A stretch of 64,000 nt of DNA from Deltaproteobacteria bacterium (lineage in GTDB: Bacteria; Desulfobacterota; Syntrophia; Syntrophales; UBA2210), in NCBI GenBank assembly GCA_016933965.1, contig JAFGTS010000014.1, positions 1 to 64,000 on the forward strand, given 5' to 3'. Positions within the stretch are counted from its first letter, which is position 1. Every line of letters starts with the position of its first letter. The notes under the pieces are model-generated. The model saw only the letters and a program-made list of their open reading frames with translations. It was not told the DNA's origin and made no database searches. Positions 14,027 through 25,801 of the stretch are shown piece after piece. The translations under genes were made by a program, and so were the position numbers.

Positions 14027-17000
14027 GTGGTAAAAGATAGCGAAAAAGTCGGTGCTGTTATGGTAGTGGGTTCGGGGATCGCCGGTATTCAGGCATCCCT
14101 GGATCTTGCGAATTCGGGTATGAAAGTATACCTCGTCGAGAATGATATCAGCATTGGCGGTATCATGGCCCAGCTCGACAAGACCTTCCCCACCAACGAT
14201 TGTTCCGCCTGCATCCTTTCCCCCAAACTGGTTGAAGTCGGGAGACACCCGAATGTGGAGATACTCACCAACAGGACGGTCCTGTCGGTGGATGGTGAGG
14301 CCGGCAGATTCGATGTCCGGTTGAAAAGAGCACCGCGGTACGTGGATATCAGCAAATGCACCGGATGTGGTGATTGCGCCGGTGTCTGTCCCGTTTCCGT
14401 TCCCTCCGCTTTTAATGAAGGTCTTGATGAGCGGAAAGCGATATACCGCAAGTTTCCCCAGGCGATCCCGAGTGCCTTCGCGATAGACAAACTGGGAACG
14501 GCGCCCTGCAAGGCGGCATGTCCCACACACATCAGCGTCCAGGGGTATGTGGCGCTCATCGCGGCGGGCAAATACAAGGAAGCGCTGAAACTGATCAAAC
14601 AGGAGAACCCCTTTCCCGCCGTGTGCGGCCGGGTCTGCAACCATCCCTGTGAATCGGCCTGTAAGCGGGCGGAAGTGGATGAGCCCGTTTCGATCATGTA
14701 CCTCAAACGGTTCGTGGCAGACCTCGATCTGAACGATGAATCGAAATATATTCCCGAAGTCAAGGACAAGAGGGACAAGAAGGTCGCCGTCATCGGCGGT
14801 GGTCCCGCCGGTCTCACGGCAGCCTACTATCTGGCCGTTGAAGGATACCGGGTCACGGTCTTCGAGGCGCTGCCCGTCGCGGGCGGCTGGCTCTCCGTCG
14901 GTATTCCCGAATACCGCCTTCCCAAGGACATCATCAATGCCGAAATAAAGATCATAGAGGAGCTGGGTGTCGAGATCCGGCTTAATACCAGGGTCGGGGT
15001 CGATGTTTCCTACGACGAGCTCAAAAGAGATTATGACGCCGTCTTCCTGGGGGTCGGTACCCATGTGAGCAGCAAGCTGAACGCGCCCGGCGAAGACCTC
15101 GAGGGCGTCGTTCACGGCATCGATTTCCTCAAACGGGTCAACCTTGGGGAAAAGGTGTTCCTCGGCAACAAGGTCGCCGTCATCGGCGGTGGAAACGTGG
15201 CGATGGATGCCGTACGGACCGCACTGCGAACGGGCTCGAAAGAGGCATTCGTCCTCTACCGCCGGACCCGCGCGGAAATGCCCGCGTCACCGGAAGAGAT
15301 AGAAGAGGCCATCCAGGAAGGGATCAAGATGGAATTTCTGGCGGCCCCCGTCAGGGTCCTTGGTGACGGCGGCAAGGTGACCGGTATCGAGTGCATCAGG
15401 ATGGAGCTGGGCGAACCGGACGCGAGCGGACGGCGGCGCCCCGTACCCGTCAAGGGGTCCGAATTCACCATCGACCTCGACGCCGTCATTCCCGCGATCG
15501 GCCAGCAGACCGACCTTTCCTTTATTTCAGAGGACAGCGGGATCGCCGTGAACAAGTGGGATACCTTCGAAGTCGATCCCGTTACCTTCATGACCAGTGC
15601 CGAAGGGGTTTTCGCCGGTGGTGACGCCGTGACAGGACCCGCGACGGTCGTTGAGGCCATCAATGCCGGCAAGGAAGCGGCGAAATCCATCGACCGCTAT
15701 CTCCGCGGCGAAGATGTGAAGGCGGGACGTGAGCGGAACTGGAAGGAATGCATTGCCGACAAGGGTGATGTGAGCTGGATGCCGCGAGAAGCCCGCCCGG
15801 AACTGAGAGAACTCGATGCGAACGACCGGAAGACCCATTTCAGGGAGGTCGTTCAGGCTTACACGGAAGAAGAGGCCGTCAGGGAAGCCAATCGCTGCCT
15901 GAGCTGCGGTGTCTGCTCCGAATGCTATCAGTGTGTCGAAGCCTGCATCGCCGGTGCCATCGATCACGAGATGAAGGAAGAGGAAGAGACCATAGCCGTC
16001 GGTGCCATCATCGCGTCACCGGGCACGGAGCTCTTTCATGCCTCTCTCCGCGGTGAGTACGGGTTCGGCGTGTATGACAACGTGGTCACCAGTATTCAGT
16101 TCGAGAGAATTCTCTCGGCCTCGGGTCCATACTTCGGCCATGTACAGAGATTGTCCGATGGAAAGGAACCGCGGAAGGTCGCCTTCATCCAGTGCGTCGG
16201 TTCCCGTGATGTCAACTGCGGCAACAGCTGGTGCTCGTCGGTGTGCTGCATGTACGCCACCAAGGAGGCGATCATCGGCAAGGAGCACGCCAAGAACCTG
16301 GAGCCCACCATTTTCTATATGGATATCAGGGCCTATGGAAAAGACTTCGACCGTTTCGTGACACGGGCGAAGGAAGAATACGGCATCCGCTATATCAGGG
16401 CCATTCCATCGTCGGTGAAGGAACTGCAGCAGACGAAGAACCTTCTCCTGACCTACGTTCAGGAAGACGGGACGCTGGTCGAGGAAGAATTCGACATGGT
16501 GGTCCTTTCCGTGGGGCTCATGCCGCCCCGGGAGGCAAAGGAGCTGGCGGCGAACCTGGGTATCGAACTCGAAGAGCACGGATTCGTCAAAACGTCGCTG
16601 GAGAACCCCGTACAGACCAGCCGTGACGGTGTCTATGTCTGCGGTGTCTTCGGCGGTCCCAAGGACATTCCCGAAACGGTCATGGAAGCAAGCAGCGCCG
16701 CCGCCTGTGCCGAAGGCCTTCTCGCGTCGCAGCGTGGCACCCTGATCAAGGAAGCGGAACTGCCCGCCGAGATGGATATGCGGGGGACTGGCCCCCGGAT
16801 CGGCGTTTTTGTCTGTCATTGCGGTATCAACATCGGCGGCGTCGTCGATGTGCCTGGCGTTGTCGAATATGCCAAAAGCCTTCCAAACGTGGTCTACACC
16901 ACGGACAACCTCTTTACCTGTTCCCAGGATACGGCGGTAAAGATGGGAGAGGTGATCAAGGAACACAATCTCACCAGAGTGGTCGTGGCATCCTGCTCAC

Positions 17001-18451
17001 CGCGCACCCACGAGCCGCTTTTCCAGGAGAACTGCGAGAAAGCCGGCCTGAACCGCTATCTTTTTGAGATGGCGAACATCAGGGACCAGGATTCCTGGGT
17101 CCACATGCACGAACCCGAGGCTGCAACGGAAAAGGCGAAGGACCTCGTCCGGATGGCCGTTGCGAAGGCGCAGTTCCTGAAACCATTGAAACCGGGACAG
17201 CTCAGCGTCAACAAGGCGGCGCTCGTCATCGGCGGCGGCATCGCCGGTATCACGGCGGCCCTCTCGCTGGCGGCCCAGGGATTCGAATCGCACCTGGTGG
17301 AAAAGGAAAGGGAACTGGGCGGCAACTATGGAAAACTGTACTACACCCTCGAGGGGCTTGACACCCGCGCGCACCTGGCGAGGCTCGTCGACGAGGTCCG
17401 GAAGAACGAACTCATACACGTTCACACCGGTGCTGAAATAAAGAGCATCGAGGGGTTCATCGGCAATTACAAGACGACCGTCACCGCTGCGGGCAAGGAA
17501 GAACAGTTCGAGCACGGTGTCGTCATCGTCGCCACCGGCGCCTATGAGTATCAGCCGAAGGAATACCTGTACGGGCAGCATAACGCCGTGGTGACCCAGA
17601 GAGAGCTTGAAGAACTGCTGGCGACGAAGGATCCCCGCGCGGCGAAGGCGAAGCGCGTGGTCATGATCCAGTGCGTCGGCTCGCGGTGCGAAGAGAGACC
17701 GTACTGCAGCCGCTACTGCTGCAGCGAGGCGATAAAGAACGCCCTGAAGCTGAAAGAGCTCGATCCCTCCGCTGATGTGACCATCCTTTACCGTGACGTA
17801 CGCACCTACGGATTGAAGGAGGATTATTATAAGAAGGCCCGCGAAGCCAACGTAAAGTTCGTTCGCTATGAGGAGAACCTGAAACCGGAAGTGATCAGCA
17901 ACGGTTCGAAGATCAGGGTGTCGACCTTTGATTACATCCTGAACGAGACCGTTGAAATGGAAGCCGATCTTTTGGCACTGAGCGTCGGTACCATACCGAA
18001 CGCGGGGAACGAAAAGGTCGGCATGATGCTGAAAATACCCATCAATCAGGATGGATTCTTCCTCGAGGCGCACGTAAAGCTGCGCCCCGTGGATTTTGCC
18101 ACTGACGGCGTGTTCTTCTGCGGCATGGCCCATTCACCGAAGATGAGCGACGAGTCCATTTCGCAGGCGAACGCAGCCGTGTCACGGGCCTGCACCATCC
18201 TGACAAAGGACTTCATCGAAGCCGAAGGCAAGACCGCCTATGTCATCAAGGAACGCTGCATGGCCTGTGGTCTGTGCGAAGCGAACTGTCCCTTCGGTGC
18301 CATAGAGGTTGATGTGAAGGAAGGATGTGCGGTGGTCAATTCCGTTCTGTGCAAGGGATGCGGTGTCTGCACCGCTTCGTGCAGAATGAACGCCGTCGAT
18401 CTGAACGGATTCAATAACGAAGAGATCCTGGCGCAGATAGCCGCTCTGTAA
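14027..18451 (+). CDS. hdrA: HdrA-type electron-bifurcating flavoprotein with internal GltD/NfnB-like insert and second HdrA module
   Basis: 1474 residues, about twice a usual HdrA. Modules: residues 1-155, HdrA FAD domain (GSGIAG 15-20) and first half of the ferredoxin insert (C111, C114, C117, C121). Residues about 156-620, a full GltD/NfnB-like unit with N-terminal cluster cysteines (161-212), FAD motif GGGPAG (257-262) and NAD(P) motif GGGNVAMDA (387-395). At 624-640 the HdrA ferredoxin cysteines resume and HdrA continues to about 905. A second HdrA module follows, with CHCG (930-933), FAD motif GGGIAG (1069-1074) and two C-terminal 4Fe-4S sites (C1411-C1421, C1442-C1452). HdrA normally bifurcates electrons between ferredoxin and a disulfide-type acceptor. 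Three flavin sites suggest direct NAD(P)H coupling (inference). Start GTG at 14027 has GAGGTG eight bases upstream. First gene of the operon. Confidence 0.9.
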   Translation: MVKDSEKVGAVMVVGSGIAGIQASLDLANSGMKVYLVENDISIGGIMAQLDKTFPTNDCSACILSPKLVEVGRHPNVEILTNRTVLSVDGEAGRFDVRLKRAPRYVDISKCTGCGDCAGVCPVSVPSAFNEGLDERKAIYRKFPQAIPSAFAIDKLGTAPCKAACPTHISVQGYVALIAAGKYKEALKLIKQENPFPAVCGRVCNHPCESACKRAEVDEPVSIMYLKRFVADLDLNDESKYIPEVKDKRDKKVAVIGGGPAGLTAAYYLAVEGYRVTVFEALPVAGGWLSVGIPEYRLPKDIINAEIKIIEELGVEIRLNTRVGVDVSYDELKRDYDAVFLGVGTHVSSKLNAPGEDLEGVVHGIDFLKRVNLGEKVFLGNKVAVIGGGNVAMDAVRTALRTGSKEAFVLYRRTRAEMPASPEEIEEAIQEGIKMEFLAAPVRVLGDGGKVTGIECIRMELGEPDASGRRRPVPVKGSEFTIDLDAVIPAIGQQTDLSFISEDSGIAVNKWDTFEVDPVTFMTSAEGVFAGGDAVTGPATVVEAINAGKEAAKSIDRYLRGEDVKAGRERNWKECIADKGDVSWMPREARPELRELDANDRKTHFREVVQAYTEEEAVREANRCLSCGVCSECYQCVEACIAGAIDHEMKEEEETIAVGAIIASPGTELFHASLRGEYGFGVYDNVVTSIQFERILSASGPYFGHVQRLSDGKEPRKVAFIQCVGSRDVNCGNSWCSSVCCMYATKEAIIGKEHAKNLEPTIFYMDIRAYGKDFDRFVTRAKEEYGIRYIRAIPSSVKELQQTKNLLLTYVQEDGTLVEEEFDMVVLSVGLMPPREAKELAANLGIELEEHGFVKTSLENPVQTSRDGVYVCGVFGGPKDIPETVMEASSAAACAEGLLASQRGTLIKEAELPAEMDMRGTGPRIGVFVCHCGINIGGVVDVPGVVEYAKSLPNVVYTTDNLFTCSQDTAVKMGEVIKEHNLTRVVVASCSPRTHEPLFQENCEKAGLNRYLFEMANIRDQDSWVHMHEPEAATEKAKDLVRMAVAKAQFLKPLKPGQLSVNKAALVIGGGIAGITAALSLAAQGFESHLVEKERELGGNYGKLYYTLEGLDTRAHLARLVDEVRKNELIHVHTGAEIKSIEGFIGNYKTTVTAAGKEEQFEHGVVIVATGAYEYQPKEYLYGQHNAVVTQRELEELLATKDPRAAKAKRVVMIQCVGSRCEERPYCSRYCCSEAIKNALKLKELDPSADVTILYRDVRTYGLKEDYYKKAREANVKFVRYEENLKPEVISNGSKIRVSTFDYILNETVEMEADLLALSVGTIPNAGNEKVGMMLKIPINQDGFFLEAHVKLRPVDFATDGVFFCGMAHSPKMSDESISQANAAVSRACTILTKDFIEAEGKTAYVIKERCMACGLCEANCPFGAIEVDVKEGCAVVNSVLCKGCGVCTASCRMNAVDLNGFNNEEILAQIAAL

Positions 18452-18478: not shown

Positions 18479-18922
18479 ATGGCTGATAACAATAAAGAAG
18501 ATCAAAACTGGGAACCCAAGATCGTGGCCTTTGTCTGCAACTGGTGTACCTATGCGGGGGCCGACCTGGCGGGGATCAGCAGAATTCAGTATCCACCCAA
18601 CGTCAGGCTGATACGGCTTCCCTGTTCCGGAAGGGTCAATCCCTTCTATGTCGTCAAAGCGCTGCAGGAAGGGGCTGACGGTGTTCTCGTATCAGGTTGC
18701 CATCCAGGCGAGTGTCACTACCTCACGGGAAATCTCTCGGCCCGGAGAAAGTTCTCCATGCTGAAAAATTTCCTGACCTATGTCGGGGTCGAACCCGACC
18801 GAACGCTTTTTACGTGGGTTTCAGCATCGGAAGGCGAGAAGTTCGCTCATGTCATCAAGGGTGTGACCGACAAGGTAAAAGCCCTGGGACCGGCGAAAAA
18901 GCTGGTGAAGAAGTTCGATTAG
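18479..18922 (+). CDS. floxD: MvhD/FloxD-type iron-sulfur electron-transfer subunit
   Basis: A 147-residue protein of the MvhD (hydrogenase delta subunit) family, which passes electrons to HdrA through a [2Fe-2S] centre. Conserved cysteines are C20 and C23 in VCNWCTYAGAD, C49 in RLPCSGRV, and C74 and C79 in SGCHPGECHY. Length fits the family. No hydrogenase gene is present in the window, so the donor is probably the Flox module downstream, as in the FloxABCD-HdrABC complex of sulfate reducers. It lies 27 bases after hdrA with GAGGA before the ATG, and is followed 47 bases later by the FloxC-like gene. Confidence 0.9.
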   Translation: MADNNKEDQNWEPKIVAFVCNWCTYAGADLAGISRIQYPPNVRLIRLPCSGRVNPFYVVKALQEGADGVLVSGCHPGECHYLTGNLSARRKFSMLKNFLTYVGVEPDRTLFTWVSASEGEKFAHVIKGVTDKVKALGPAKKLVKKFD

Positions 18923-18969: not shown

Positions 18970-19980
18970 GTGAAAAATATTGAGAATCAATTGCGGGAAG
19001 AAGCAAAAAAACTGCTGGATGACGGTAAGGTCAACGTCATTGTCGGGTACGAGGAAGGAACACTTCCCGGGCAGACGACACCCTGTTTCATTGAAAGTTC
19101 GGCCGACGCCGACCGGCTTGTTTGGAATCCCTTCTGTTCCATGAATCTGGCAAAGTACGTTCATGATATCATCCATCGTCACAGGGACTCGCAGAAACGG
19201 GCGAAGCCGGAAGAACGGACGAAGAAGATCGTCGGTGTCGTGGCGCGGGGCTGTACCACGCGGTCACTCATTCTGAACCTGCAGGAGAAACAGTACGAAA
19301 GAGAAGAACTGGTCATTATCGGCGTTCCCTGCACAGGGTACGTGGCCCGCAGGAAACTTGACCGTGCGGCCGGTGGAAAAGAGATCATCGGGTGTGCCGT
19401 CAACGGCGACCGGTTGACGGTGACCACCGCCGGTGGTGACAGCGACATTCTCCTGAAAGACATCATTTCCAACAGCTGTATGACCTGTCGATATAACAAT
19501 CCCATCATATCGGACATCATGGTGGGAGATCCGGCCCCTCCCATGGAGCCCGGCAGGGAATACGACGCCGTAACGGAATTCGAGAACAAAACAGAGGAGG
19601 AGCGCTGGGCCTATTTCGCCGGGGAGATGGACAAATGTATCCGCTGTTACGCCTGCCGGAATGCCTGCCCCTCCTGCTACTGCAAAGTATGCTTCCTTGA
19701 GCAGAATCAGCCCAAGTGGATCGGCGTCGGCGTCGAGGAGACCGACACCCAGGTATTCCAGTTCATGCGGATGTTCCACATGGCGGGCAGATGTGTCGAT
19801 TGCGGTTCCTGCGTCGAGGTCTGCCCCATGGGCGTGGATCTGAGAACATTCCTCAAAAAACTCGATAAGGACGGATTTGAACTTTTCGAACACCGGGCCG
19901 GTGAGTCTCTCGAGAGCCTGCCGCCGCTCAGTGTCCATTCGATGAACGATAAAGAGGAATTCATCTACGAACCGGAGTAA
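18970..19980 (+). CDS. floxC: FloxC-like iron-sulfur protein with two 4Fe-4S sites
   Basis: This 336-residue protein has a C-terminal ferredoxin-type domain with C223/C226/C229/C233 and C275/C278/C281/C285. A nearby CPSCYCKVC stretch adds C236, C238 and C241. The N-terminal half carries ARGCTTRS, GVPCTGYV and SCMTCRYNNP, resembling F420-hydrogenase/dehydrogenase beta-type proteins. By position and motifs it fits the FloxC electron-wire subunit between NADH-oxidising FloxA and HdrABC. That name is an assignment by context. It starts with GTG at 18970, and GAGGAA lies about 11 bases upstream. It is followed by hdrC after 22 bases. Confidence 0.75.
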   Translation: MKNIENQLREEAKKLLDDGKVNVIVGYEEGTLPGQTTPCFIESSADADRLVWNPFCSMNLAKYVHDIIHRHRDSQKRAKPEERTKKIVGVVARGCTTRSLILNLQEKQYEREELVIIGVPCTGYVARRKLDRAAGGKEIIGCAVNGDRLTVTTAGGDSDILLKDIISNSCMTCRYNNPIISDIMVGDPAPPMEPGREYDAVTEFENKTEEERWAYFAGEMDKCIRCYACRNACPSCYCKVCFLEQNQPKWIGVGVEETDTQVFQFMRMFHMAGRCVDCGSCVEVCPMGVDLRTFLKKLDKDGFELFEHRAGESLESLPPLSVHSMNDKEEFIYEPE

Positions 19981-20002
19981 GAGAACAATAAACGGAGTGA
20001 AC

Positions 20003-20527
20003 ATGGGAACGTTTTTAGAAGAGATCAATGAGAAAATCGGGGGAGTCCCCATTCAGGCCTGCTACCACTGCAGAAAGTGTACAGCCGGGTGTCCGGTGGC
20101 CTTTGCCATGGATTACAACCCGAACGCCGTCATCAAGATGATCCAGATGGGGAAGCGTGATGAGGTTCTGAACAGCTCGACGATCTGGCTCTGCGCCTCC
20201 TGTGAAACCTGCGTAACGCGCTGCCCCAACGAGGTCGATATCGCCCGGATGATGGACGTGTTGCGGGAAACGGCGATCGAGAACAATATCGAGCCGAAAG
20301 AAAAGAATATTCTGAAATTTCATGAAGCGTTCCTATCGAATATCAAGTTCGGCGGCAGGATCAACGAGCCGCTCATGATCATGCTCTATAAGATGAAATC
20401 GGGAGATTATTTCTCCGACCTCGGGATGGGAATGAGCATGTTCATGAAGGGGAAGATAAAACTTCTGTCCCCGAGAACGAGTGACATGAAATCGGTGAGA
20501 AATATATTCAAAGCAACCGGTAAATAG
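20003..20527 (+). CDS. hdrC: HdrC, 4Fe-4S subunit of heterodisulfide reductase-like complex
   Basis: A 174-residue, two-cluster ferredoxin-type subunit that relays electrons from HdrA to HdrB. Cysteine sets are C20/C23/C26/C30 (CYHCRKCTAGCP) and C64/C67/C70/C74 (CASCETCVTRCP), followed by the VDIARMMDVLRE helix typical of HdrC. A GTG six bases upstream (19997) is also in frame, but CGGAG at 19993-19997 is correctly spaced only for the ATG at 20003. Length is normal for soluble HdrC. It sits between the FloxC-like gene and hdrB (gap 51 bases). Confidence 0.92.
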   Translation: MGTFLEEINEKIGGVPIQACYHCRKCTAGCPVAFAMDYNPNAVIKMIQMGKRDEVLNSSTIWLCASCETCVTRCPNEVDIARMMDVLRETAIENNIEPKEKNILKFHEAFLSNIKFGGRINEPLMIMLYKMKSGDYFSDLGMGMSMFMKGKIKLLSPRTSDMKSVRNIFKATGK

Positions 20528-20578: not shown

Positions 20579-21427
20579 TTGAAAGTTTCATATTATCCAG
20601 GATGTTCGCTGCATGCCACGGGAAGGGAGTATGACGAGTCCGTTAAAGCCGTCAGCACGGCATTGAATATAGAACTCAATGAGGTGGATGACTGGTCCTG
20701 CTGCGGAGCGTCATCGGCCCATATGACCAATTACAAGCTCTCCGTCGCGCTTCCGGCAAGAAACCTGATCGCCGCCGAGAAAAATGAATGGGACGTCATG
20801 GTTCCCTGCGCCGCCTGTTTCAACCGGTTCAAGTCCGCGCAGCACCACCTTGAGAAGGATGAGGCGTTGCGCTCTGAAATAGAAAACGCTCTCGGCATGA
20901 AGTACGCCGGTTCGGTGGCGGTCCGGACACCGATCGATGTCATTTACAATGACATCGGTATCGATGCGATCCGGGAACTGGTAAAGAAACCCCTGGAAGG
21001 CCTGAAACCCGTCTCCTATTACGGATGTCTGCTCCTGCGGCCGCCCGAGGTGTGCCAGTTCGATGATTACGAGAATCCCTACATGCTTGACGCGATCATG
21101 AACGGTCTCGGTGCGGAATCGCGCAAATGGTCCTGCAAGACCGACTGCTGCGGAGGAAGCCTGACCCTGGGGAAAACGGAGATCGTCATCAGGCTGGTGG
21201 ACCGTCTCATGACCATGGCCCGCGAAGCGGGGGCCAATTGCCTGGTGACGGCATGCCCCGTCTGCTTTGCGAACCTCGATACAAGGGCGAGTGAAAACGT
21301 GGTGCTCCCGGCGTTTTACTTTACCGAACTCATTGCTCTTGCCCTGGGGCTTGAGGGATACGATTCCTGGTTCAGGATGCACAACGTCAATCCCCGTCCC
21401 CTGCTGAGCTCCCTGGGGCTTGTGTAA
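20579..21427 (+). CDS. hdrB: HdrB, catalytic CCG-domain subunit
   Basis: A 282-residue protein with two CCG domains. The first has C9, C41-C42, C77 and C80; the second has C150, C190-C191, C226 and C229. In methanogens each set binds a non-cubane [4Fe-4S] cluster that cleaves the CoM-S-S-CoB disulfide. All ten cysteines are present, so the protein looks active. CoM and CoB are not expected in this organism, and the physiological acceptor is unknown. In sulfate reducers DsrC trisulfide or a small thiol has been proposed. Start TTG at 20579 is supported by GAAGGAGG nine bases upstream. Confidence 0.93.
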   Translation: MKVSYYPGCSLHATGREYDESVKAVSTALNIELNEVDDWSCCGASSAHMTNYKLSVALPARNLIAAEKNEWDVMVPCAACFNRFKSAQHHLEKDEALRSEIENALGMKYAGSVAVRTPIDVIYNDIGIDAIRELVKKPLEGLKPVSYYGCLLLRPPEVCQFDDYENPYMLDAIMNGLGAESRKWSCKTDCCGGSLTLGKTEIVIRLVDRLMTMAREAGANCLVTACPVCFANLDTRASENVVLPAFYFTELIALALGLEGYDSWFRMHNVNPRPLLSSLGLV

Positions 21428-21491: not shown

Positions 21492-22517
21492 ATGGAAAAG
21501 AGAGTGATTAAAAAGGACGCCCTGGCCGGTATTGTACAGAAACTGGCGGAAGATACGCTGGTCTATGCGCCGGTTCAGGAAGAGGATCAGGTACTCTTCA
21601 AGGCTCTGAAACAGGGAATGGCGCCGTTGATCGACTTCGCGAACGCGAAAAACGCGCCGAAAAATTTCTTCTTTCCCCAGACGGAGACAATGCTCAAGTT
21701 CTTTCGCAGTGAGCGGGGCAGGGAACTTTCCGAGGTCGTCGAAGGATCTCCCGAGGCGATCCTGTTCGGCGTCCGTCCCTGCGATGCGCGGAGCTTCGTC
21801 CTGCTGGACGCTGTCTTCAATGATCCGACATATAAAGATCCCTATTACATCGAGAGAAGAGAAAAAACGACAATCGTCTCGCTGGGCTGTGTCAACCCGC
21901 CCTACACGACCTGTTTCTGCACCTCCGTCGGTGGCCACCCCCTTTCTTCGGAAGGTGCCGACGTGATGCTGACGGAGATGGAAGAGGGATATCTGGCCGA
22001 GTTTCTGACCGAGAAGGGTGAGAAGCTTCTGGCCCGTCTGGGTGATCTGTCGGCGGCCGATCAGGGGTTGGATGAGAAAAAGAAGGAAATCTCCGCAGCA
22101 GCTGAGGGTAAGATCAAATCCCATATTCCGGGTAAAGAGATCAAACCATGGCTCGATGAGAATTTCGAACATCCCTTCTGGGATACGATTCATAAAAGCT
22201 GTCTTGCCTGCGGTACCTGCACCTATCTGTGTCCCACCTGCCACTGCTTTGACATCACCGATGAAGTGAAGGGCGACGGCGGGCAGCGTATCCGCTCCTG
22301 GGATTCCTGCATGTCCTGGCTTTTCACCATGGAAACCTCGGGCCATAATCCGAGACCGAGCCAGAAGGAGCGATGGCGCCAGAGACTGATGCACAAGTTC
22401 CGGTATTTCGTTGACAGATATGGGGCGATCGCCTGTGTCGGTTGCGGCCGGTGCGTCATGTACTGCCCCGTCAATATAGACATACGAAAGATTGTAACGG
22501 ATATTTCGAAACAATAG
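21492..22517 (+). CDS. floxB: FloxB-like 4Fe-4S protein (AsrA/HydB type)
   Basis: A 341-residue soluble protein. The N-terminal two-thirds carries the family segment EAILFGVRPCDARSFVLLD and SLGCVNPPYTTCFCTSVGG, and two 4Fe-4S sites lie at C237/C240/C243/C247 and C315/C318/C321/C325. This arrangement is shared by anaerobic sulfite reductase subunit A, sulfhydrogenase beta and FloxB. No sulfite reductase catalytic subunit lies nearby, and hdr genes flank it, so FloxB is preferred. It should carry electrons from FloxA to the FloxC/MvhD branch. ATG at 21492 with AAGGA upstream. FloxA follows at 22533, 15 bases after the stop. Confidence 0.82.
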   Translation: MEKRVIKKDALAGIVQKLAEDTLVYAPVQEEDQVLFKALKQGMAPLIDFANAKNAPKNFFFPQTETMLKFFRSERGRELSEVVEGSPEAILFGVRPCDARSFVLLDAVFNDPTYKDPYYIERREKTTIVSLGCVNPPYTTCFCTSVGGHPLSSEGADVMLTEMEEGYLAEFLTEKGEKLLARLGDLSAADQGLDEKKKEISAAAEGKIKSHIPGKEIKPWLDENFEHPFWDTIHKSCLACGTCTYLCPTCHCFDITDEVKGDGGQRIRSWDSCMSWLFTMETSGHNPRPSQKERWRQRLMHKFRYFVDRYGAIACVGCGRCVMYCPVNIDIRKIVTDISKQ

Positions 22518-22532
22518 TGTGTGGAGATGGTA

Positions 22533-23375
22533 ATGCAAACGAACCCTTATGTACCGATACCTGTCAACGTCGATAAAATCATCACGGAAGTGACGACCAA
22601 GGATATCAAGACGTTCCGCCTCGCCTTCGTGAACAAGGAAGATGAGGAAAACTTCAAGTACCTTCCCGGCCAGTTCGCCGAGCTTTCCGTCTTCGGAAAG
22701 GGCGAGTCACCGATCGGGATCGCGTCCTCACCCACGCAGAAAGGTTACATTGAATTTACCGTGCAGAAGGCCGGTGTGGTAACGAGCGAGCTCCACGCCA
22801 TGGAAGAAGGGACCCTGATGGGTGTACGAGGCCCCCTGGGGAACACCTGGCCCATCGATTACCTCGAGGGAAAGAACATCGTCATCGTCGGCGGCGGGTT
22901 TGCCTTCACCACGCTCCGGTCGCTGCTCAATTACATGATAGACGACGCGAACCGCTCCCGGTTCCAGAACATCACCGTCGTGTACGGCGCCCGTGAGCCG
23001 GGTCTCCTGATCTACAAGGACGAGCTTGCACAGTGGGAGAAAAGGGACGACATTAATCTCAATGTCACCGTCGACAAAGGGGATGAGACTTGGAAAGGTC
23101 GCGAAGGATTCGTTCCCACGGTCTGTAAGGAAGTGGCCCCGAGCTCTGAAAACGCCGTGGCTGTCATATGCGGGCCTCCCATCATGATACGGTTCACCCT
23201 GCCCGTCTTCTTCGATCTCGGATTTTCCAGGGAGAACATCTATACCTCACTGGAAATGAGGATGAAGTGCGGCATTGGAAAGTGCGGTCGCTGCAACGTG
23301 GGACACAAGTATGTCTGCAAGGACGGCCCCGTGTTCTCACTTGCCGAACTGGACGGCTTGACGAAAGAATACTAA
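22533..23375 (+). CDS. floxA: FloxA-like FAD/NAD(P)H oxidoreductase with C-terminal 2Fe-2S site
   Basis: A 280-residue ferredoxin-NADP reductase-fold protein. The FAD domain contains LPGQFAELSV and SPIGIASSP. The NAD(P) domain has VRGPLGNTWP, IVIVGGGFAFTTLRSL and CGPPIMIRF. The C-terminal CGIGKCGRCNVGHKYVC binds [2Fe-2S], as in AsrB and PyrK relatives. It is the likely entry point for NADH electrons into the Flox-Hdr complex. Two upstream in-frame starts exist (GTG 22521, ATG 22527), but TGGAG at 22522-22526 is best spaced for the ATG at 22533. It is the last gene of the operon, followed by a 196-bp gap with a 36-bp palindrome. Confidence 0.85.
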   Translation: MQTNPYVPIPVNVDKIITEVTTKDIKTFRLAFVNKEDEENFKYLPGQFAELSVFGKGESPIGIASSPTQKGYIEFTVQKAGVVTSELHAMEEGTLMGVRGPLGNTWPIDYLEGKNIVIVGGGFAFTTLRSLLNYMIDDANRSRFQNITVVYGAREPGLLIYKDELAQWEKRDDINLNVTVDKGDETWKGREGFVPTVCKEVAPSSENAVAVICGPPIMIRFTLPVFFDLGFSRENIYTSLEMRMKCGIGKCGRCNVGHKYVCKDGPVFSLAELDGLTKEY

Positions 23376-23571: not shown

Positions 23572-24411
23572 TTGAACAGGATCATCGATAAGGAATCAAT
23601 ATCGGAGAATGTCATACAGATGGTCATCGAAGCGCCCGAGATCGCCCGCAAACGGAAGGCGGGGCAGTTTGTCGTGCTCATGACCGACGAAAAGGGGGAG
23701 CGGATACCGCTCACCATTGTCGACGAGGACAGGGAAGCGGGAACGATAGACATCATCTATCAGGTCGTCGGGAAGACAACCGCCTGCCTTGCCGCCATGA
23801 ATCCGGGGGATGAACTATTCAGCGTTGTCGGACCCCTCGGCAAGGCGACGGATATTGAGCAGTTCGGTACCTGTGTCTGTGTCGGCGGCGGTGTCGGTAT
23901 CGGTGTCGTGTATCCCATCGCGAAGGCGCTGAAAGAGCTGGGGAACCGGGTCGTATCGATCATCGGGGCCCGGTCGAAGAACATCCTTATTCTCGAGGAG
24001 AAGATGCGTGCCGTGAGCGACGAACTTCTGGTCGCCACCGACGACGGGAGTTATGGCCATCACGGTTTTGTCAGCGATGTTCTCCAGAGCCGCATCGATG
24101 CGGGAGAGACGATAGACCGTGTCTTTGCCGTCGGTCCCGTGCCGATGATGCGGGTCCTCTCGGAACTGACCAGGCCCTATCACATTCCGACCATCGTCAG
24201 TCTCAACCCGATCATGGTCGATGCCACCGGCATGTGCGGCGCCTGCCGCGTTTCCGTCGGCGGCGAGACAAAACTTGCCTGCGTCGACGGTCCGGAATTT
24301 GACGGGCATGAGGTTGATTTCGGCCTGCTGGCGAGCCGCCTGAGGATGTACACGGAACAGGAAAAAGAAGCAATAGACCATCTGGAGTGTCAATGCCATG
24401 GACGAAAGTAA
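23572..24411 (+). CDS. nfnA: NfnA-type ferredoxin:NADP oxidoreductase small subunit (SudB-like)
   Basis: A 279-residue FAD and [2Fe-2S] protein. Motifs: RKRKAGQFVVLM and ERIPLTIVD (FAD), VGPLGKATDIEQFG, CVGGGVGIGVVYPIAKAL (NAD binding), VGPVPMMRVLSEL, and C-terminal GMCGACRVSVGG...ACVDGPEFDGHEVDF with the cluster cysteines. NfnAB couples NADH and reduced ferredoxin oxidation to NADP+ reduction, or the reverse, by electron bifurcation; older names are SudB or GltX. The TTG start at 23572 has AGGGGGTG eight bases upstream. Its last 14 bases overlap nfnB, a sign of coupled translation. Confidence 0.9.
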   Translation: MNRIIDKESISENVIQMVIEAPEIARKRKAGQFVVLMTDEKGERIPLTIVDEDREAGTIDIIYQVVGKTTACLAAMNPGDELFSVVGPLGKATDIEQFGTCVCVGGGVGIGVVYPIAKALKELGNRVVSIIGARSKNILILEEKMRAVSDELLVATDDGSYGHHGFVSDVLQSRIDAGETIDRVFAVGPVPMMRVLSELTRPYHIPTIVSLNPIMVDATGMCGACRVSVGGETKLACVDGPEFDGHEVDFGLLASRLRMYTEQEKEAIDHLECQCHGRK

Positions 24412-25801
24412 GAAGAAAAAGGAAAAGGTCCCGCGGCAGGGCATGCCGGAACAGGACCCGGGAGAACGGGTGCGGAACTTTGATGAGGTGCCCCTGGGAT
24501 ACACGGAAGAACAGGCCCTGCTCGAAGCATCACGCTGCATTCACTGTAAAAAACCCCTCTGTGTCAACGGGTGTCCTGTCGATATCGATATTCCCGGCTT
24601 CATTGCACTGATCACAGAGAGGGATTTTGCCGGCGCGGCCCGCAAGATCAAGGAAACCAATTCATTGCCGGCGGTCTGCGGCCGTGTCTGTCCCCAGGAA
24701 AGCCAGTGCGAGGCGACCTGCATCCTCGGCAAGAAAGGCGATCCTGTGGCGATCGGACGGCTCGAGCGTTTTGTCGCCGACTTTGAGCGTGGCACCGGGG
24801 AGATCCTGATCCCGGAGATGGCGCCGAAAACGGGCAAGCGGGTCGCCGTCGTCGGTGCCGGACCGGCGGGGCTGACCATAGCGGGGGACCTCATCAAGCT
24901 CGGCCATGACGTGACCATATTTGAGGGCCTTCACAAGTCCGGCGGCGTCCTGATCTACGGCATACCGGAATTCCGTCTTCCCAAGAGCATCGTTGATGCC
25001 GAGGTAGATTTTCTGAAGCGCATGGGTGTCGAGATCGTCACCAACGCCGTGGTCGGGAGACTGAAGACCGTGGATGACCTCTTCGCGGAGGGGTATGATG
25101 CCGTTTTCCTGGGTGTCGGCGCCGGCGCGCCGGTCTTCATGAACATCCCCGGCGAAAACCTGAGCGGCATATACTCGGCCAATGAATACCTGACCCGGTC
25201 GAACCTGATGAAGGCCTACCGGTTTCCCGAGTATGACACGCCTATCGCCCGCGGAAGAAACGTGGGCGTCATCGGCGGCGGGAATGTGACGATGGATGCC
25301 GCCAGGACAGCCCTTCGAATGGGCGCCGAGAACGTCTATGTCATCTACCGGCGAACCGAAACGGAAATGCCCGCCCGGATAGAGGAAGTACATCACGCCA
25401 GGGAAGAGGGCGTGCAGTTTCACCTGTTGACCAATCCGGTCGAATATATCAGCGACGAGAGCGGCTGGGTGAAGGGTGCCCGGTGCATCCGCATGGAGCT
25501 GGGTGAGCCCGACGAATCGGGACGGCGGCGTCCTGTGCCCATTGAAGGTTCGGAATTCGTCATCGACGTGGATATGGTGGTCGTTGCCATCGGGACCATG
25601 GCGAATCCCGTCATTCAGGCTACCACGCCCGGTCTGGAAACGAACCGGCGCGGCTATATCATTGCTGATGAGGAAACGGGAGAAACAACCCGTGAGGGCG
25701 TGTTCGCCGGCGGTGACATCGTGACCGGGTCGGCGACGGTGATACTTGCCATGGGCGCCGCAAAAAAAGCCGCCCGGGCGATCCATGCCTACCTAAAATA
25801 A
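24398..25801 (+). CDS. nfnB: NfnB-type large subunit, GltD-like flavoprotein (SudA-like)
   Basis: A 467-residue partner of NfnA. The N-terminal double-cluster domain has the series CIHCKKPLCVNGC, then AVCGRVCPQESQCEATC. The b-type FAD domain has VVGAGPAGLTIAGDL and FGIPEF-like YGIPEFRLPK. The NADP(H) domain has IGGGNVTMDAARTALRMGAENVYVIYRR. The C-terminal FAGGDIVTGSATVILAMGAAKKAARAI closes the flavin site. The same architecture is found inside the HdrA of this window (residues about 156-620), so the two are paralogous modules. Length is standard. The stop codon is directly followed by the left end of an RAYT element (25803). Confidence 0.92.
   Translation: MDESKKKKEKVPRQGMPEQDPGERVRNFDEVPLGYTEEQALLEASRCIHCKKPLCVNGCPVDIDIPGFIALITERDFAGAARKIKETNSLPAVCGRVCPQESQCEATCILGKKGDPVAIGRLERFVADFERGTGEILIPEMAPKTGKRVAVVGAGPAGLTIAGDLIKLGHDVTIFEGLHKSGGVLIYGIPEFRLPKSIVDAEVDFLKRMGVEIVTNAVVGRLKTVDDLFAEGYDAVFLGVGAGAPVFMNIPGENLSGIYSANEYLTRSNLMKAYRFPEYDTPIARGRNVGVIGGGNVTMDAARTALRMGAENVYVIYRRTETEMPARIEEVHHAREEGVQFHLLTNPVEYISDESGWVKGARCIRMELGEPDESGRRRPVPIEGSEFVIDVDMVVVAIGTMANPVIQATTPGLETNRRGYIIADEETGETTREGVFAGGDIVTGSATVILAMGAAKKAARAIHAYLK

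Follow-up and report, generated by a model that had tools for sequence, protein, structure and literature searches.

Fusions of heterodisulfide reductase with glutamate synthase were defined as HdrL by Strittmatter in 2009 in Desulfobacterium autotrophicum and were then called unique to that species (PMC2702500). Its HdrL1-HdrL3 fusions are followed by mvhD, the HdrL loci contain dsr or formate dehydrogenase genes, and two of the HdrL proteins are selenoproteins. The HdrA that belongs to the MetFV-HdrCBA-MvhD complex of Moorella, 1487 aa long, has the complete two-module architecture. The 2022 report on it (PMC9430772, citing Mock 2014) gives a TrxR domain with a GltD-interrupted ferredoxin, followed by an N-terminal domain, a further TrxR domain and a C-terminal ferredoxin, and records NADH oxidation by the recombinant HdrA at 190 U/mg. 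In ANME-1, NfnB is inserted in the ferredoxin domain of HdrA9-11 (Chadwick 2022, PMC9012536), and a 2025 survey placed such proteins of ANME-1 and Bathyarchaeota in a type III HdrA, separate from type II with its two modules, and proposed that GltD blocks ferredoxin and feeds in electrons from NADH (PMC12054007). GltD is also joined to other redox proteins in StnC of Sporomusa ovata (8oh5), whose host is NuoG-like rather than HdrA, and in NfnABC (9bov, 9n5u).

The window analysed here, a 64,000-nucleotide stretch of contig JAFGTS010000014.1 from a Syntrophales-related genome (96.7% complete), encodes an HdrL with the features of the class: GltD in the ferredoxin of a module, a second module with a C-terminal ferredoxin, and mvhD adjoining (Table 1). 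It shares with Moorella HdrA the domain order, the E/K residues in both modules and the neighbouring hdrC, hdrB and mvhD; however, copies from the Moorella genus carry CLE, an NAD-type motif, in place of YRR, and the M. stamsii copies sit with metV/metF whereas the window's HdrL sits with Flx-type genes. As in D. autotrophicum, the fusion precedes mvhD, but the dsr or formate dehydrogenase genes and the selenoproteins of that species set it apart. The GltD/NfnB insertion resembles that of type III HdrA, although reported archaeal HdrA proteins reach at most 1182 aa, against 1474 aa here, and type III has a GxGxxG (NAD) loop where the window's HdrL reads GGGNVA. FlxABCD-HdrABC has the same mvhD, hdrC, hdrB and HydB/HydG-like genes, yet lacks the GltD unit and second module that the window's HdrA carries. 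A preliminary description of the locus had implied that the arrangement was novel; literature and genome surveys did not support this. The architecture is widespread among anaerobic bacteria and had been described by 2009, 2022 and 2025 publications, an outcome that the preliminary description had itself named as refuting it, and one relative has been studied in vitro. Possible novelties are minor: the circular permutation of the GltD unit, its StnC-type Lys, and an NADP-type form with Flx-type operons.

Table 1. Features of the hdrL locus, in window coordinates.
Feature	Position	Strand	Remarks
hdrL, encoding a 1474-aa HdrA of two modules with a permuted GltD insert	14027..18451	+	single open frame, GTG start
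HdrA module 1, first part (residues 9-155)	14051..14491	+	FAD motif GSGIAG, Cys62, C111/C114/C117/C121
Circularly permuted GltD/NfnB-like insert (residues 156-628)	14492..15910	+	proximal and distal clusters, FAD and NADP sites (predicted)
YRR motif (residues 411-413)	15257..15265	+	predicts NADP(H); criterion PMC7596348
Second HdrA ferredoxin half C630/C633/C636/C640	15914..15946	+	
HdrA module 1, second part	15947..16741	+	C723/C736/C740/C741; bifurcation residues E693, K746
HdrA N-terminal cluster domain (residues 922-1060)	16790..17206	+	C930/C932/C965/C990
HdrA module 2, TrxR fold	17210..18226	+	E1195, K1237; C1216/C1227/C1231/C1232
C-terminal 2x[4Fe-4S] ferredoxin domain	18230..18421	+	
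mvhD/flxD	18479..18922	+	adjoins hdrL
336-aa Fe-S protein	18970..19980	+	weak FrhB/FdhB-C similarity
hdrC	19997..20527	+	two CxxCxxCxxxC motifs
hdrB	20579..21427	+	two CCG-type motifs
HydB/AsrA-like Fe-S protein, Flx-type	21492..22517	+	
HydG/AsrB-like FAD/NAD(P)H reductase, FlxA-type	22521..23375	+	
nfnA-nfnB pair, own unfused unpermuted NfnB	23572..25801	+	196 bp past Flx-type genes

Pfam, NCBIfam and PDB searches agreed on HdrA-like blocks at residues ~13-155, ~630-900 and ~922-1473 and on a GltD/NfnB-like block at ~157-627, upholding the earlier reading of a GltD-like unit inside the HdrA ferredoxin domain and a second HdrA module. The methanogen HdrA structure 5odc matched the ORF in four blocks, its ferredoxin domain being cut between 5odc residues 290 and 293, the exact site of the GltD insert in HdrL. 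An AlphaFold2 model of residues 1-1062 (48 homologues; pLDDT 88.8, pTM 0.82) was compared by Foldseek: HdrA chains aligned with it over ~900 columns that span the insert, for example 8rvu_a (897 columns, TMt 0.94), and the insert part matched NfnABC, StnC and NfnB. Three FAD motifs in the chain agree with the three flavin sites proposed before. The earlier minimum of four clusters is exceeded: up to nine [4Fe-4S] clusters are predicted, two each in the GltD unit, the inserted ferredoxin, the TrxR domains and the C-terminal ferredoxin and one in the N-terminal domain, with their ligand sets intact.

Residues 585-627 of HdrL aligned with residues 11-50 of the window's own NfnB with a score of 91 (shuffled mean 22, maximum 48), so that the segment with which a standard NfnB begins, first CxxC pair included, lies displaced behind the Rossmann domains. 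By this alignment, the GltD unit is circularly permuted, an arrangement that StnC and NfnABC share among the PDB matches, with the same permuted CxxC; a literature search combining circular permutation with GltD found nothing. Because the unit is permuted, C624 and C627 are the cluster cysteines of GltD that have moved away from its N terminus, and the second HdrA ferredoxin half therefore comprises C630/C633/C636/C640. The permutation, missed in the preliminary description, thus rules out its assignment of C624-C640 to one ferredoxin half and moves the end of the insert from 620 to ~628, while the start at ~156 stands. With both of its ends close to the distal cluster, a permuted GltD may for that reason be insertable into ferredoxin-like hosts.

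By homology to dihydropyrimidine dehydrogenase, NfnB and StnC, we take the distal GltD cluster to be held by C161/C212/C624/C627 and the proximal one, presumably under the same ligand rule, by C165/C204/C208 and Lys227. Lys227 aligns with StnC K170, a residue shown to matter for the proximal cluster, and a Lys occupies this position in 118 of 132 HdrL homologues; the Glu ligand of bifurcating NfnB is replaced by it in the alignment. Since the GltD clusters follow the StnC pattern, the FAD of the GltD unit probably serves as an NAD(P)H gate and does not bifurcate.

The two HdrA modules are complementary. Module 1 retains Cys62, the equivalent of Cys197 of M. wolfeii HdrA, and lacks the N-terminal cluster domain. 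Module 2 keeps this domain and is without both the Cys197 equivalent and an inserted ferredoxin. This complementary loss gives the pair of modules the look of an HdrA dimer joined into a single chain, as was suggested from the same complementarity for fused ANME HdrA and Moorella HdrA. Equivalents of E356/K409 of bifurcating HdrA occur in both modules (E693/K746 and E1195/K1237), corresponding to residues numbered E696/K750 and E1204/K1246 in the Moorella report (PMC9430772). Among 56 homologues from the matches listed, the Glu/Lys pair is invariant in module 1 and not in module 2.

The preliminary description had recognised a NAD(P) site in the insert and left its cofactor undecided. YRR is the NADP phosphate site as defined for NfnB and DsrL-2 (PMC7596348), and we predict that the window's HdrL uses NADP(H), because it has YRR where Moorella, whose HdrA oxidises NADH, has CLE. 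YRR was present in 103 of 132 HdrL sequences, most others reading C/A/M-L-E, and CLE in all 12 HdrL copies from 11 Moorella genus genomes. Where a HydG-like gene lies near hdrL, 28 of 28 loci were of the NADP type, compared with 69 of 92 elsewhere (Fisher p 0.0018, a statistic that ignores kinship and serves as a lead only). In a phylogeny-aware check of this link, about one of nine informative pairs differed, too few pairs to settle it.

hdrL heads its Flx-type operon, in which gaps of 3 to 64 bp separate successive genes. The gene order is conserved in relatives, and flx-type genes, hdrBC and hdrA were found together in one operon. The 336-aa Fe-S protein (18970-19980) is kept in Flx-type hdrL operons without a clear family name. 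The nfnA-nfnB pair also lies directly behind the Flx-Hdr genes in several relatives, placing an NADH:ferredoxin:NADP enzyme beside HdrL. Elsewhere hdrL often neighbours metV-metF, which are absent from the window operon; the sole MetF-family match of the genome is on contig C42. No HdrA other than HdrL was found in the genome, which makes the nucleotide specificity of HdrL directly testable. A DsrC-linked function of the complex, as in Desulfovibrio, was considered and set aside: a search of the 96.7% complete genome found no DsrC, DsrA or [FeFe]-hydrogenase, and no RnfC match above the cut-off, so a DsrC-linked sulfur role is unlikely.

We favour, with moderate confidence, a reading in which HdrL is the bifurcating/confurcating core of a cytoplasmic Flx-Hdr NADH/NADPH/disulfide complex, with NADP(H) replacing ferredoxin. 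NADPH would meet the GltD FAD, which would pass single electrons via the Lys-ligated proximal cluster and then the distal cluster to the clusters of the inserted HdrA ferredoxin, from where they would reach the bifurcating FAD of module 1. NADH would enter through the HydG/HydB-like pair and MvhD via the C-terminal ferredoxin, and HdrC/HdrB would form the disulfide branch. NADP(H) would thus fill the role of free ferredoxin in methanogen HdrA, and the complex could couple NADH, NADPH and a thiol/disulfide pair reversibly. The earlier proposal that the protein could link NAD(P)H to HdrBC and the bifurcating flavin has good support in the domain fusion, in the downstream hdrC, hdrB and mvhD, and in the NADH oxidation published for the Moorella counterpart (PMC9430772). 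A literature search found no biochemistry on Flx-associated HdrL. Far more tentatively, these proteins might as a class be ferredoxin-free disulfide-linked transhydrogenases (NADH at FlxA, NADP(H) at GltD, thiol/disulfide at HdrB) whose GltD type is matched to the operon, NADP with Flx and NAD only in metF-type or unassigned loci. Such a split of NAD-type and NADP-type GltD by operon type offers a simple rule that can be checked in the laboratory, and it bears on the NADH/NADPH/ferredoxin balance in syntrophic bacteria and on the thiol partner of Hdr where DsrC is lacking.

Cysteines C111-C121 and C630-C640 are fully kept, and Hdr/Flox of Smithella was proposed earlier as a ferredoxin source, as would fit Flx-Hdr bifurcation of the usual kind, in which ferredoxin carries the low-potential electrons and GltD is a second donor port, NADPH and NADH feeding the same clusters. 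We nevertheless regard this as rather unlikely, as the insert occupies the ferredoxin docking domain and has been modelled in type III HdrA as blocking ferredoxin access (PMC12054007). It is less likely still that bifurcation takes place at the GltD FAD, as it does in NfnB, so that one chain would hold two or three such sites: the proposal made for ANME-1 HdrA-NfnB (PMC9012536) would extend to HdrL through its strong NfnB similarity and the retained R297 (NfnB R201), but position 227 holds the Lys of StnC, a protein that lost bifurcation, where NfnB has Glu, and there is no fused NfnA-type partner, the downstream NfnAB pair having its own NfnB.

That HdrL is an assembly chimera or a decayed fusion is vanishingly improbable; nothing counted in favour, and the protein is intact in many genomes with conserved cofactor residues. 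Both insert borders (residues 90-760) were matched in 170 of 395 genomes and 113 of 246 genera of the phylum, nearly all in frames of ~1400-1520 aa, and these intact border-spanning frames rule out a chimera at the borders, the concern raised initially. When 40 relatives and the genome itself were compared, more than 20 genomes from the order carried an unbroken HdrL with 73-86% identity. Among the matches listed in named genomes, 65 of 80 loci carry the module set in one frame, 56 of these 65 with at least 1400 aa, and Syntrophaceae and Smithella are the nearest named relatives. Hosts include at least Desulfobacterota, Chloroflexota, Firmicutes, Acidobacteria, Delongbacteria, Armatimonadota, Cloacimonadota and Spirochaetes, with others.

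Three loci encode a full-length HdrL together with a separate HdrA of ~1050-1070 aa on the same strand (L072:8111-11284, L075:2660-5848 and L100:3119-6322). In four others (L061:586-4848, L086:9965-15358, L108 and L114), the HdrA modules are divided over two adjacent genes, the GltD unit of L061 and L086 sitting in the first. Farther along the window, positions 34200-61632 hold polysaccharide genes, encoding a UDP-sugar dehydrogenase, a MocA-type oxidoreductase, a UDP-GlcNAc 2-epimerase, a flippase and a capsule-type epimerase.
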